The notes under the pieces were generated by a model. It saw only the letters and a list, made by a program, of their open reading frames with translations. It ran no database searches and was not told where the DNA came from. The translations under genes were made by a program, and so were the position numbers. This document shows positions 8,446-13,190 of a stretch of DNA of 64,000 bases, in pieces. The stretch lies in NCBI GenBank assembly GCA_001899585.1, contig MKWE01000051.1, forward strand, positions 202,991 to 266,990, written 5' to 3'. Source of the DNA: Rhodospirillales bacterium 70-18 (GTDB lineage Bacteria; Pseudomonadota; Alphaproteobacteria; Acetobacterales; Acetobacteraceae). Numbering within the stretch: the stretch's first letter is position 1; the number at the start of each line of letters is the position of its first letter.

Positions 8446-9030
8446 ATGGGTCATCATAATTCATTGTCGAACGAAGTCGCCGCCGCCCGCGCCTGCACCT
8501 TGTGCGCCGAGCGGCTGCCGCTGGGGCCGCGTCCGGTGCTGCGCGCCTCGGCCACGGCGCGGCTGCTGATTATCGGGCAGGCGCCCGGCACCAGGGTGCA
8601 TGCCACCGGCATTCCGTGGAACGACCCTTCCGGCGTGCGGCTGCGCGAATGGATGGGGGTGGCGCCGGCGCAGTTCTACGACGAGGCGCGCATCGCCATC
8701 CTGCCGATGGGGCTGTGCTACCCGGGCCGGCTGCCGCGCGGCGGGGACGCGCCGCCGGACCCGGCCTGCGCGCCGCTGTGGCATCCGCGCCTGCGGCCGC
8801 TGATGCGCGAGATCCGGCTGACGCTGCTGGTGGGCAGCTACGCTTTGGGGGGTGGGCCGATGACGCCGCGGGTGATGGACTGGCGGCGCGACTTGCCGGC
8901 GGTGCTGCCGCTGCCGCATCCGTCCTGGCGGACACTGGCCTGGGAAAGGCGCCATCCGTGGTTCCGGGAAGAACTCCTCCCGGAACTACGGCGGCTCGTT
9001 GCCGAAATTCTCGGCACGCCAAACGAATAA
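8446..9030 (+). CDS. Uracil-DNA glycosylase family protein
   Basis: A 194-aa member of the uracil-DNA glycosylase superfamily. The first active-site motif is GQAPG (44-48), followed by HATGIPWNDPSGVRLREWMG, and the second conserved motif LPHPSWRT lies near the C-terminus. An N-terminal CTLC pair (C17, C20) is present, but I cannot say whether it binds a metal or cluster. It should excise uracil or a related base from DNA. The frame is open upstream, but ATG 8446 directly after the thpR stop gives the expected length. The last codons and the stop (AAC GAA TAA) lie inside AT-rich repeat B, so the repeat supplies the end of the protein. Confidence 0.86.
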   Translation: MGHHNSLSNEVAAARACTLCAERLPLGPRPVLRASATARLLIIGQAPGTRVHATGIPWNDPSGVRLREWMGVAPAQFYDEARIAILPMGLCYPGRLPRGGDAPPDPACAPLWHPRLRPLMREIRLTLLVGSYALGGGPMTPRVMDWRRDLPAVLPLPHPSWRTLAWERRHPWFREELLPELRRLVAEILGTPNE

Positions 9031-9109
9031 AAGTTTTTTGGTTCTTTTTTTCAAAAAAGAGCAACCTTCTTTGTTTGAAAACAAAGAAGCAAAAAAAATT
9101 TATTCGTTT
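9021..9109. repeat. AT-rich composite palindromic repeat, copy B (permuted)
   Basis: The arms AAACGAATAAAAGTTTTTT (9021-9039) and AAAAAAAATTTATTCGTTT (9091-9109) are inverted and lie at the outside of the block. Inside are a GTTC-type hairpin with a degraded right arm (9040-9066) and a perfect 11-bp hairpin CTTCTTTGTTT/AAACAAAGAAG (9066-9076 and 9079-9089). Relative to copies A, C and D the parts are circularly permuted: the arms point outward and the hairpins inward. It separates convergent genes and overlaps the 3' end of the glycosylase gene, whose TAA is part of the arm. Confidence 0.85.
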
Positions 9110-9113
9110 CTTC

Positions 9114-9434
9114 TTATTTTACTGGCGAGAACGCGGTGGGGGCGATGATGCGGTTTTCCATTTCCAGGAGCACGTCGGCTTCGGCGACCGCGCTGAGATA
9201 GGCGCCCCAGGCCGGGTCGGCGGCCATCGCCTTACGGCGCTGCTCGCGGTCGCCCTGGTCGGCATAGCCCCACATATGGACCACGCGGTTCAGCGGGCCT
9301 TCGACGGTGGTGTACCAGCCGAGGCAGTTGCCGAGGTATTTCTGCTGCAGCGGCCAGGCCTTCTCCTCGTAGATTTTCACGAAGGTGGCCATTTTGTTGG
9401 GCTTGCAGGTGTAGATGCGCAGGTCGACGATCAT
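9114..9434 (-). CDS. NIPSNAP family protein
   Basis: A 106-aa ferredoxin-like (dimeric alpha-beta barrel) protein of the NIPSNAP family; the N-terminus [15 protein letters not shown] and the central [14 protein letters not shown] are typical. The biochemical role is unknown; small bacterial members are often found near catabolic enzymes. ATG 9434 is chosen over an upstream in-frame codon because GGAAGGA precedes it by 6 nt. The stop lies 5 bp from repeat B. A palindrome (9451-9467) sits just upstream of the ribosome-binding site. Confidence 0.85.
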
Positions 9435-9450
9435 GGGGTTTCCTTCCATC

Positions 9451-9550: not shown

Positions 9551-10327
9551 ATGAACGAGCCGGTGCTGCACCTTCGCGGGCTGACCCGCCGCTTCGGCGC
9601 CAAGGTGGCGGTGGATGACGTGACTTTGGACATCCCGTCCGGCCAGATGGTCGGCATCATCGGCCCCTCCGGCGCCGGCAAGTCCACGCTGCTGCGCATG
9701 GTCAACCGGCTGCTGGCGCCGAGCGCCGGCAGCATCCGCTTCGGCGAGCTGGAGGTGACCGCGCTGTCCGGCCGGGCGCTGCGCGACTGGCGGACGCGCT
9801 GCGCGATGATCTTCCAGCAGTTCAACCTGATCCCGCGCCTGGACGTGCTGACCAACGTGCTGATGGGCCGGCTGAACCACCGCCCGGTGCTGACCAGCCT
9901 GCTGGGCCTGTTCAGCGCCGCCGAGCGGGCGATGGCCCTGCAGGCGCTGGAACGCTTCGACCTCGCCGACGTGGCGCTGGTCCGTGCCGGGCGCATCTCC
10001 GGCGGGCAGCAGCAGCGCGTGGCGATCTGCCGGGCGCTGCTGCAGGAGCCGCGGCTGATGCTGGCCGACGAGCCGGTGGCCAGCCTGGACCCGCGCAACG
10101 CCAAGGTGGTGATGGACGCGCTGCGCCGGATCAACCGCGAGGACGGGCTGACGGTGCTGTGCAACCTGCACGACCTGGACGTCGCGCGCGACTATTGCGA
10201 CCGCATCGTGGCGATGCGCGAGGGCCGCATCGTGTTCGACGGCCGGCCTGATACGCTAACCGAGGCGCGGGTGCGCGGCATCTACGGCGCGGACCATGGT
10301 GCCGGGACGGAACCGGCCTTGACATGA
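9551..10327 (+). CDS. phnC: Phosphonate-type ABC transporter ATP-binding protein
   Basis: A 258-aa ATPase of the PhnC family that energises uptake of phosphonates, phosphite or related organophosphorus compounds. Walker A is GPSGAGKST (38-46), the signature [14 protein letters not shown], Walker [14 protein letters not shown], and the switch His is in CNLHDLD, which is characteristic of PhnC rather than other importers. ATG 9551 starts the operon phnC-phnD-phnE1-phnE2. No C-P lyase (phnG-M), phosphonatase or phosphite dehydrogenase gene is in the window, so the real ligand cannot be fixed from context. Confidence 0.93.
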
Positions 10328-10382: not shown

Positions 10383-11360
10383 ATGCCGACACGCCGCATT
10401 CTGCTCGCCGCCACGGGCCTGATGCTCGCCGGGGCCGCCCAGACCGATGACGCCCGGGCCGATGACACCCGCGACATGCCCGCGCCGGGCCGCCGGGCCT
10501 GGGCCGCCCAGGTGCCGGTGATCCGCATCGGCCTGCTGGGCGGCGAGAACGACACCGACCGGCTGGCCCGCTATGGCGGCTACCAGAAGCTGCTGGAGGA
10601 CACCTTCAAGGTGCCGGTGAAGCTGGTGTTGGCGGCCGATTATGCCGGCGTGATCCAGGGCTTCGCGGCCGGGCAGCTCGAAGCCTCGTATATGAGCCCG
10701 ACCGCCTATGCCGGGGCCTGGATGGAAAGCAAGGGCAACGTGATCCCGCTGCTGACCACGCAGGAGAAGGATGGCAGCACCAGCTACATCGCGGTGATGT
10801 ATGTGCGCGCCGATTCCGGCATCACCACGCTGGCGCAGATGAAGGGGCGGTCGCTGGCCTGGTCGGACCCAAACAGCGCCTCCGGCTACCTGATCCCGCG
10901 CGCCGAGTTCCGCGCCGCCGGGATCGACCCGGAGCCGGGGAAATTCTTCGGGCGCACCGGCTTTGCCGGCGGGCACGAGCAGGCGGTGGTGGCGGTGCTG
11001 GGGCGGCAATACGATGCCGGGGTCACCTGGACCTCTGGCCTGGGCGACGAGGCGGCGGGGTTCACCCGCGGCACTCTGCGCATCATGTCCGACAAGAAGC
11101 TGCTGAACATGAAGGACCTGCGGATCATCTGGAAGTCCCGGCCGATCCTGAACGGGCCGTTCGTGGTGCGCGCCGACACGCCGGCGGCGTTCCGTGCCGA
11201 CATGCTGGCGCTGCACCGGGCGATACCGGTGCACTACCCGGACATCTACCACGCGGTGGACATGGGCTCGGGGATGGACTGGGTGCCGGTGACGCATGCC
11301 GACTACCAGGTGTTCATCGATATCCGCAAGGCCGAGGCGGCGGCGCGGCGGGCCAGGTGA
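10383..11360 (+). CDS. phnD: Phosphonate-type ABC transporter periplasmic substrate-binding protein
   Basis: A 325-aa periplasmic binding protein. A signal peptide of about 25 residues ends near DDARA. The PhnD-family core is clear: GLLGGENDTDRL, then GYQKLLEDTFKVPVKL, ADYAGVIQGFAAGQLE, and the ligand-loop region YMSPTAYAGAW. It should capture phosphonate, phosphite or a similar anion for PhnC/PhnE. AGGAGG precedes ATG 10383. It lies 55 bp after phnC. It is followed not by phnE1 directly but by AT-rich repeat C, so distal expression may be uncoupled from phnCD. Confidence 0.92.
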   Translation: MPTRRILLAATGLMLAGAAQTDDARADDTRDMPAPGRRAWAAQVPVIRIGLLGGENDTDRLARYGGYQKLLEDTFKVPVKLVLAADYAGVIQGFAAGQLEASYMSPTAYAGAWMESKGNVIPLLTTQEKDGSTSYIAVMYVRADSGITTLAQMKGRSLAWSDPNSASGYLIPRAEFRAAGIDPEPGKFFGRTGFAGGHEQAVVAVLGRQYDAGVTWTSGLGDEAAGFTRGTLRIMSDKKLLNMKDLRIIWKSRPILNGPFVVRADTPAAFRADMLALHRAIPVHYPDIYHAVDMGSGMDWVPVTHADYQVFIDIRKAEAAARRAR

Positions 11361-11487
11361 AGGGAAGTCTTCTTTTTGTGAACAAAAAGAAGCAAAAAAA
11401 CTTTGTTCGCTGGGGACCCGGCCCGGACTGGGGGACCCCAGCGAACAAAGTTTTTTTGGTTCTTTTTTTCAAAAAAGAACCCCTTCC
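11361..11487. repeat. AT-rich composite palindromic repeat, copy C, inside the phn operon
   Basis: Order: hairpin CTTCTTTTTG/CAAAAAGAAG (11369-11378 and 11383-11392), then a perfect 22-bp inverted repeat whose left arm runs 11394-11415 (seven A, CTTTGTTCGC, TGGG plus G) and right arm 11436-11457, then hairpin GGTTCTTTTTT/AAAAAAGAACC (11458-11468 and 11471-11481). The central stem has a GC-rich tip and is flanked by A7 and T7, the form of a bidirectional intrinsic terminator. It starts directly after the phnD stop and ends at the presumed TTG start of phnE1. Confidence 0.88.
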
Positions 11488-12354
11488 TTGACCCCTCCCT
11501 TCGAAACCGCTTGGCAGATCCGCCGCCGCGCGAGGCTGCTGGCCGGCCTCGGCTGGGGCGGCGTGTTGCTGGCCTGCTTGCTGCTGTCGGCCTGGGTGTC
11601 GGAAGCCTATCCGGCGGCGCTGCTGGCCGGGCTGCCGCGTGTGGGCGAGTATTTCGCCAAGCTGGTGCCGACGCTGCACTGGGCGACGCTGTTCGGTGGC
11701 ACCAAGGCCGAGGGGTCGCTGGCGTACTGGTTCTACCGGCTGGATTCCTGGGCGTGGCTGCTGTTCGAGACCAGCCAGATGGCGGCGCTGGCGACGCTGG
11801 GGGGCGCGGTGGGCGGGCTGCTGCTGTGCTTTCCGGCGGCGGCCAACCTGGCGCCGAACCGGGCGGTGTACCTGCTGTGCCGGCGGCTGCTGGAGTTGTT
11901 CCGCTCGGTGCCGGACCTGGTCTATGCGCTGATCCTGGTGTGGGCGTTCGGCGTCGGCCCGCTGGCCGGCATCCTGGCGATCGGGCTGCACACGGTGGGC
12001 GCCACCGGCAAGCTGTTCGCCGAGGTGGTGGAGAATGCCGACATGCAGCCCTGGGAGGGGGTGCGGGCGGCGGGCGGCACCTGGCTGCACGGGGTGCGCT
12101 TCGCCATCCTGCCGCAGGTGCTGCCGAATTTCCTCAGCTACACGCTGCTGCGCTTCGAGATCAACGTGCGCGGGGCGACGGTGATCGGCTTCGTCGGCGC
12201 GGGGGGCATCGGGCAGGAGCTGTACCAGGTGATCAGCTTCAACTACTACGAGGAGATCAGCGCCATCGTGCTGCTGATCGTGCTGGTGGTGGCGGCGATC
12301 GACCTGGCCAGCGAACGGCTGCGCGGCTGGGCGGCCGGCCAGGGGACGCCATGA
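11488..12354 (+). CDS. phnE: Phosphonate-type ABC transporter permease 1
   Basis: A 288-aa membrane permease of the PhnE family with about six helices and the EAA-type coupling region ENADMQPWEGVRAAGG. The PhnE signatures VPDLVYALILVWAFGVGPLAG and NFLSYTLLRFEINVR are visible as overlapping segments. The start is a problem: there is no in-frame ATG or GTG between phnD and the first helix. TTG 11488 (giving MTPPFETAWQIRRR) is the best candidate and sits exactly at the end of repeat C, without a convincing ribosome-binding site. The repeat may have replaced the original start region. The stop overlaps the start of phnE2 (ATGA). It should form a heterodimeric channel with the second permease. Confidence 0.85.
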   Translation: MTPPFETAWQIRRRARLLAGLGWGGVLLACLLLSAWVSEAYPAALLAGLPRVGEYFAKLVPTLHWATLFGGTKAEGSLAYWFYRLDSWAWLLFETSQMAALATLGGAVGGLLLCFPAAANLAPNRAVYLLCRRLLELFRSVPDLVYALILVWAFGVGPLAGILAIGLHTVGATGKLFAEVVENADMQPWEGVRAAGGTWLHGVRFAILPQVLPNFLSYTLLRFEINVRGATVIGFVGAGGIGQELYQVISFNYYEEISAIVLLIVLVVAAIDLASERLRGWAAGQGTP

Positions 12355-13190
12355 GCACCGAGCGCATCGCCGCCGCGGAGGTGGCACGATGGCGGGCGCG
12401 GCTGCCGCGCGCCTTCGCCCCCGCACCCGCTGTGCGGGTGGCGCGGGTGCTGGCCTGGGCGGCGTTCCTGGGCTGGCTGGGCGCGGTGCTGTGGTGGTTC
12501 GACATCACGCCCGCGCGGCTGTGGCGCGGGCTGTCCGGGCTGTTCACCATCATCCGGCTGATGATCCCGCCCAGCCCGGGCGCGCAATGGGCGGACATAT
12601 TGAAAGGGCTGGCGCAGAGCGTGGCGATGGCCTTCCTGGGCAGCTTCGCCGCCATGGTGCTGGCGGTGCCGCTGGGCTTTCTGGGCGCGCGCAACGTGGT
12701 GGTGAACCTGCTGGCGCATTTCTCGATCCGGCGGGTGTTCGACGGGCTGCGCGGCATGGACCAGCTGATCTGGGCGCTGGCCTTCGTGCGGGCGGTGGGG
12801 CTGGGGCCGCTGGCCGGGGTGCTGGCGATCATGGCCGCCGAGGTGGCGGTGCTGGCCAAGCTGTTCGCCGAGGCGATCGAGAACGCCGACCCCGGGCAGG
12901 GCGAGGCGGTGGTGGCGGTGGGGGGCCACCCGCTGCTGCGGCTGCGCTACGGGCTGCTGCCGCAGGTGCTGCCGGTGATGCTGGCGCAGTTCCTGTATGC
13001 GGTGGAGAGCAACACCCGCAGCGCCAGCATCCTGGGGGTGGTGGGCGCCGGCGGGATCGGGCTGCAGATCGCCGAGCGGATCAAGGTACGCTATTGGGAC
13101 GAGGTGCTGTTCATCATCCTGCTGATCCTGGCGATGGTGGCGGCGATCGATTTCATCTCGGCGCGGATTCGGCGGCGGTTGATCGGGTAG
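12351..13190 (+). CDS. phnE: Phosphonate-type ABC transporter permease 2
   Basis: A 279-aa PhnE-family permease and paralogue of the preceding gene. The coupling region is ENADPGQGEAVVAVGG and the family motifs MDQLIWALAFVRAVGLGP and ESNTRSASILGVVGAGGIGL are present. ATG 12351 overlaps the stop of phnE1, so it is translationally coupled. Two PhnE proteins with one PhnC and one PhnD is a known arrangement of this transporter type. It ends 44 bp before the convergent end of the kdp operon. Confidence 0.92.
   Translation: MSTERIAAAEVARWRARLPRAFAPAPAVRVARVLAWAAFLGWLGAVLWWFDITPARLWRGLSGLFTIIRLMIPPSPGAQWADILKGLAQSVAMAFLGSFAAMVLAVPLGFLGARNVVVNLLAHFSIRRVFDGLRGMDQLIWALAFVRAVGLGPLAGVLAIMAAEVAVLAKLFAEAIENADPGQGEAVVAVGGHPLLRLRYGLLPQVLPVMLAQFLYAVESNTRSASILGVVGAGGIGLQIAERIKVRYWDEVLFIILLILAMVAAIDFISARIRRRLIG

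Follow-up and report, generated by a model that had tools for sequence, protein, structure and literature searches.

A terminator-like repeat in the phnD-phnE1 overlap of an Acetobacteraceae importer operon leaves both genes intact and may favour binding protein over permease

The window, i.e. the whole stretch of 64,000 nt analysed here, carries an operon that encodes an ATPase, a substrate-binding protein (SBP), and two PhnE permeases in the order expected for a phnCDE1E2 importer (Table 1). An earlier note on this DNA had described phnC, phnD, phnE1, and phnE2 as co-directional, which the coordinates and NCBIfam matches confirmed; phnE1 and phnE2 overlap by 4 nt (ATGA). The imported substrate may be phosphonate or another phosphorus oxyanion, because PhnD scored 212 bits against the strict PhnD model TIGR03431, under its cut-off of 261. 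Identities to the nearest relative (L033, whose phnD-phnE1 junction sequence equals that of the named Limobrevibacterium locus L180) were 74% for PhnD, 80% for PhnE1, and 79% for PhnE2. Thus, both permeases are intact and conserved no less than PhnD, with no sign of decay, and on these grounds they are probably expressed.

Table 1 Features of the phn operon and of the repeat at the phnD-phnE1 junction (positions in the window).
Feature	Position	Strand	Basis or remark
phnC, phosphonate ABC transporter ATPase	9551..10327	+	TIGR02315, 316 bits (cut-off 266)
phnD, phosphonate-type SBP	10383..11360	+	PF12974 and TIGR01098 above cut-off
phnD stop TGA	11358-11360	+	Context GTGA, the overlap form that serves as phnE1 start in empty-site relatives
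Composite palindromic repeat, 127 nt	11361..11487		Left edge AGGGAAG, right edge CTTCC/T; sequence, RNA fold, genome count
Left outer hairpin CTTCTTTTTGTGAACAAAAAGAAG, AT-rich	11369..11392		Sequence and repeat copies
Core unit resembling a bidirectional terminator (A7, 19-bp stem, T7)	11394..11457		Mirrored on the minus strand
Core stem arms CTTTGTTCGCTGGGGACCC/GGGACCCCAGCGAACAAAG	11401-11419 and 11432-11450		Sequence
T7 tract after the core stem	11451-11457		Sequence
Right outer hairpin GGTTCTTTTTTTCAAAAAAGAACC, AT-rich	11458..11481		Sequence and repeat copies
TTG, most likely PhnE1 start codon	11488-11490	+	Column shared with the starts of repeat-free L035 (TTG) and L053 (ATG)
phnE1, permease	11488..12354	+	TIGR01097, 256 bits (cut-off 217)
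phnE2, permease	12351..13190	+	TIGR01097, 248 bits (passes the NCBIfam cut-off)

The gap between phnD and phnE1 is filled by a terminator-like repeat, as the note had stated. It is a 127-nt palindrome with a 19-bp stem and T7 on both strands. The RNA fold of the repeat had a predicted energy of -72.3 kcal/mol (z = -8.55), which was reached by 0 of 200 shuffled sequences, and the minus-strand fold was similarly strong (z = -7.1). The anatomy is that of an intrinsic (Rho-independent) terminator, in which a G+C-rich stem is followed at once by a T-tract, on either strand. Among 67 complete copies of the repeat, the core hairpin of the phn copy was the most stable (-52.7 kcal/mol; median -30.5). 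A search of the gap for sigma-70 promoters found none. Rfam matches all stayed below threshold (models of miRNAs and of hairpins in plastid 3'-UTRs) and were put down to chance resemblance among AT-rich stems.

Downstream of the phnD stop, the TTG at 11488 is the sole usual in-frame start ahead of the first PhnE1 helix. Its predicted Shine-Dalgarno pairing (-1.5 kcal/mol) is weaker than that of about 89% of the predicted genes and lies within the range of random positions, in agreement with the note's view of a single TTG candidate at the repeat end without a clear ribosome-binding site. The accompanying statement that no in-frame ATG or GTG precedes the first helix holds for the gap but not beyond it; the PhnE1 frame is stop-free across the repeat and reaches back into phnD as far as an in-frame ATG at 11296. 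That ATG was rejected as the start, as it lies within phnD, would add a peptide encoded by the repeat, and is not matched by any start in relatives. A TTG without Shine-Dalgarno pairing behind a strong terminator could be read as damage, i.e. the insertion removed the proper start of PhnE1 and the two permeases are poorly or not expressed. We consider this reading most improbable in view of the intact, conserved permeases, of several genes in the same genome that likewise start at a repeat edge without a Shine-Dalgarno sequence, and of a relative (L035/L179) that has the same TTG start and no repeat.

Indeed, comparison of the junction in relatives indicated that repeat-free loci often start phnE1 within the phnD stop. 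The overlap is TTGA in L035/L179 and L051/L183, ATGA in L053, L205, and L210, and GTGA in L031, L041/L177, and L050/L190, where the GTG lies a few codons from the start column of the window. In L035/L179, the TTG (CCTTGA) occupies the same column as the window TTG, with M-T-E-A-V-E against M-T-P-P-F-E, and in L053 an ATG occupies that column. In the repeat-free loci L007 and L010, no in-frame ATG, GTG, or TTG was found before the first PhnE1 helix, and the frame reaches a CTG that overlaps the phnD stop (CTGA), which suggests a CTG start. The lack of ATG or GTG is therefore not due to the repeat, since repeat-free relatives use TTG or CTG-only contexts. These results contradict the proposal in the note that the insertion displaced or removed the original PhnE1 start; a repeat-free relative with the same TTG start, as seen in L035/L179, is what the note itself had named as refuting it.

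Two states of the junction were also observed within the genus g21, namely an empty one in L051 and a filled one in L044, with TTGAGCGC kept on the far side of the L044 element. Because L044 keeps this sequence and repeat-free relatives use overlapping starts, the junction comparison indicates that what the insertion cost is the 4-nt stop/start overlap and any translational coupling, not the start codon. The phnD gene of the window has GTGA at its end, and a second TGA stands directly behind the repeat (11489-11491, within TTGACC). The simplest history suggested by this arrangement is insertion into an NTGA overlap, after which the base before the second TGA would come from the repeat edge; the TGA on both sides of the copy is a possible 3-bp target duplication.

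The repeat is dispersed in the genome. The two arm patterns gave 121 and 125 matches (246 in total) in 5.05 Mb, corresponding to about 120 copies, whereas the reversed control pattern gave 0. We took a census of 60 stretches (about 1.2 Mb), picked for holding repeat arms, plus the window, with genes called by a home-made codon-usage gene finder, and obtained the 67 complete copies mentioned above. Their edges read AAGGAAG/CTTCCTT and mostly lie no more than a few bases from a stop codon. According to the orientation of the flanking genes, 45 of 65 classified copies were co-directional, 19 convergent, and only 1 divergent, while the divergent share among long gaps of this DNA was 28% (106 of 377; P = 1.6e-7). 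The family also occurs in the genera g5 and g21 and is absent from g91; no description of it was found in the literature searched. A further copy in the window is inside-out (9020-9106, right arm then left arm). The TAA stop (9028-9030) of a plus-strand gene at 8464-9030 falls in its first bases, and this gene is convergent with a NIPSNAP-family gene at 9114-9449 on the minus strand.

Some copies lie within operons of core enzymes. In the same genome, the repeat splits sucA|sucB|lpd, hisA|hisF, and addB|addA; copies were seen at both junctions of the sucA-sucB-lpd-like operon (L117 11378-11452 and 12819-12884, contig C5) and inside the addB-addA-like (L156 9760-9821) and hisA-hisF-like (L140 10929-11024) pairs. 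The repeat is thus not always a full block, and some genes downstream of a copy must be reached by read-through or have promoters of their own. A copy by itself shows neither that unequal expression was selected nor that termination is strong. Copies were also found within transporter gene pairs, namely SBP_bac_5|permease (L167 6774-6855), permease|ATPase (L142 7021-7081), and permease|permease (L152 10017-10091). The annotated co-directional pairs did not support the idea that the repeat favours SBP|permease junctions in this genome; only the phn copy and that at L167 6774 had such a placement among co-directional copies with annotated flanks.

We also examined the starts that follow the repeat. 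In the genome, 27 genes start less than 30 nt behind a copy; their Shine-Dalgarno pairing was -3.29 kcal/mol against -5.71 kcal/mol (P = 7e-5) and did not exceed the random level. The window TTG is thus one of a class. Retention of the ancestral Shine-Dalgarno sequence on the far side of tight copies was a trend only (P = 0.12, n = 8). Annotators should be aware that starts at repeat edges can be rare codons without a Shine-Dalgarno sequence and are easily miscalled. Such starts would also fit a model in which the folded repeat juxtaposes the phnD stop and the PhnE1 TTG, so that reinitiation by ribosomes or 30S subunits would preserve part of the coupling. The predicted fold does place stop and start 2 steps apart instead of 128 nt; however, 17 of 100 shuffled inserts brought them equally close, the first two bases of the TTG are themselves part of the paired stem base, and the corresponding path in filled-site relatives ranged from 3 to 32 steps. 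Reinitiation across the hairpin is accordingly regarded as very unlikely.

Subsequently, the position of such repeats was compared among 98 Acetobacteraceae-centred loci. Strong-folding, repeat-like palindromes were present in the phnD-phnE1 gap of L001 (the window), L044, L036, L039, L043, L083, L089, L012, and L013; in L049 and L004 they lie directly upstream of phnE1, on contigs that do not reach phnD. Counted by genus, this amounts to about 7 gains at phnD-phnE1 (6 without L004), 1 at phnE1-phnE2 (L044), and 0 at phnC-phnD. With an equal chance over the three junctions, 7 of 8 gains at phnD-phnE1 gives P = 0.003, a value that overstates the case as the loci are not independent. The fewer gains at phnE1-phnE2 may reflect tolerance rather than preference, because the two genes overlap in most loci and leave less room for insertion. 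The repeats at phnD-phnE1 belong to several families, at least two of which (that of the window and that of genus g34) are genome-wide. In g34, a distinct GC-rich composite palindromic family (AGGCCAGGGGCTTTGCCCCTGGACCC...), with 19-55 matches per genome, occupies the same junction in four relatives (L036, L039, L043, and L049), whereas L045 is empty. In L044/L189 (G231), AT-rich repeat copies were observed at both phnD-phnE1 and phnE1-phnE2.

Loci outside Acetobacteraceae, mostly from Hyphomicrobiales (Xanthobacter, Kaistia, Aquabacter, Methylocystis, and others), were analysed as well. In these other alphaproteobacterial families, a long gap separates phnD from phnE1, with a median of 129 nt. 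A strong GC hairpin (at least 9 G-C pairs, at most 110 nt from the phnD stop) was found at phnD-phnE1 in 25 of 50 loci, as compared with 0 of 41 at phnC-phnD and 0 of 50 at phnE1-phnE2; for a stem with a T-rich tail, the numbers were 19 of 50, 0 of 41, and 0 of 50, respectively. Shuffling gave an expectation of less than 1 for these measures. The P values of the contrast between junctions (1e-6 to 1e-9) are too optimistic because the species are related, but the contrast itself is obvious. In Kaistia granuli, for example, the junction reads TGA...GGCGGCCGG TGAT CCGGCCGCC TTTTT.

These data bear on a rival explanation, namely that the repeat is a neutral passenger that settles behind stop codons where it is tolerated and that transcription mostly passes through the phn copy or the effect there is negligible, with no ratio control selected. 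Such a passenger would be in keeping with about 120 copies in the genome and with the 45 of 65 classified copies between co-directional genes, including core enzymes expected to be made in step. It accounts less well for the repeated gains at phnD-phnE1 but not at the two other junctions, for the dedicated hairpins at this place in other families, and for the phn copy having the strongest core hairpin sampled. We therefore hold this explanation to be possible but doubtful.

Hairpins at the corresponding place have been described in other importer operons. In ABC-importer operons of cellulolytic Clostridia, stem-loops behind 5' SBP genes act as internal intrinsic terminators that set the ratio of SBP to translocator, with measured termination efficiencies of 21-96%, the highest being those with poly(U) tails (Wu et al. 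2022, PMC9045158). The phn copy resembles them in having a stem-loop and U-tract, with the U-tract paired, behind the SBP gene and before the permease genes, in an intergenic region of more than 50 bp. Internal terminators were defined there as stem-loops below -10 kcal/mol that directly follow the 5' SBP gene and precede those of the translocator (PMC9045158), and the core at phn has -52.7 kcal/mol. The phn operon differs in that the ATPase gene phnC precedes phnD and in that its hairpin is a copy of a dispersed repeat replacing a stop/start overlap, while the clostridial terminators were not described as repeat copies (PMC9045158); at the phn hairpin, termination is predicted from the sequence.

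In decay-regulated ABC operons of Escherichia coli, including malEFG, the SBP segment of the mRNA is stabilised, usually with stable hairpins at its 3' end (PMC5927463; for hairpin-stabilised segments such as that of malEFG, Newbury et al. 1987 as cited there). The phn operon shares with malEFG a palindrome that separates the binding-protein gene from the genes of the permeases and, presumably, an excess of the SBP. Unlike malEFG, to which it has no known sequence relation, the phn copy has AT-rich outer hairpins and T-tracts that indicate termination besides protection.

The malE-malF hairpins are REP sequences. Our repeat is like REP, BIME, and REPIN elements in being abundant and mostly intergenic, in occurring in convergent and co-directional contexts, and in having paired hairpins (PMC3733652, PMC3116915). 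It is unlike them in its length of about 127 nt with a terminator core, in its edges, and in the absence of a resident RAYT. On inspection of the edges of the 67 copies, the GTAG or CGTC tag that marks one end of the 20-40 bp REP/REPIN palindromes (PMC3733652) was not found. A search for the Y1/RAYT transposase (PF01797) gave 0 matches in the draft genome (98.7% complete) and was positive in control genomes, and a REPIN/RAYT origin was rejected on this ground. As to MITE-like traits, the repeat has short imperfect inverted edges, and TGA flanks the phn copy on both sides; other copies had no uniform duplication.

Taken together, the explanation that we favour, with moderate confidence, is that the repeat was inserted in the phnD/phnE1 overlap with both genes left intact and that binding protein is likely made in large excess over permease. 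A repeat that is abundant in Acetobacteraceae, has the anatomy of a bidirectional terminator, and is usually found behind stop codons would have entered the NTGA of phnD/phnE1. Comparison with relatives shows that phnD kept its TGA, and phnE1 the ancestral position of its start, now a TTG, and the anatomy shows that the 4-nt overlap and any coupling were abolished. Transcripts from the phnC-phnD side would then be partly terminated or processed at the hairpin, which would also protect the phnD 3' end and the phnC-phnD mRNA; we infer partial termination and protection from the published mechanism, the poly(U)-hairpin anatomy, and the most stable core of the 67. Together with the weak TTG start, the hairpin would result in much more binding protein than PhnE1-PhnE2. 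The phn copy would thus be a repeat-derived counterpart of internal terminators found at this junction in numerous operons for ABC importers, phn among them. The splits of sucA|sucB|lpd, hisA|hisF, and addB|addA count against this explanation, and so does the second phn operon of the same genome (G000 C56), which showed no hairpin beyond base composition (z = 0.13). Hence, the control of stoichiometry between binding protein and channel that the note had raised is plausible and is backed indirectly by the comparisons among loci and by published precedent, but it is not proven, because the same repeat sits in operons for which no such ratio is expected.

A broader idea, which we regard as quite unlikely, is that mobile terminator repeats of several families serve as exchangeable 'ratio parts' in Acetobacteraceae. 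They would enter stop/start overlaps with both frames surviving, and the downstream gene, deprived of its Shine-Dalgarno sequence, would depend on read-through and hairpin-bridged reinitiation, with a heritable step-down of expression.

ABC importers generally have more binding protein than channel, and among the known causes are hairpins that follow the SBP gene. The locus and its relatives present the states before and after the gain of such a hairpin within single genera (L051 against L044; L045 against L036, L039, and L043). Dispersed repeats of several families can thus supply hairpins at the SBP junction, and the origin of internal operon terminators becomes a testable comparison.
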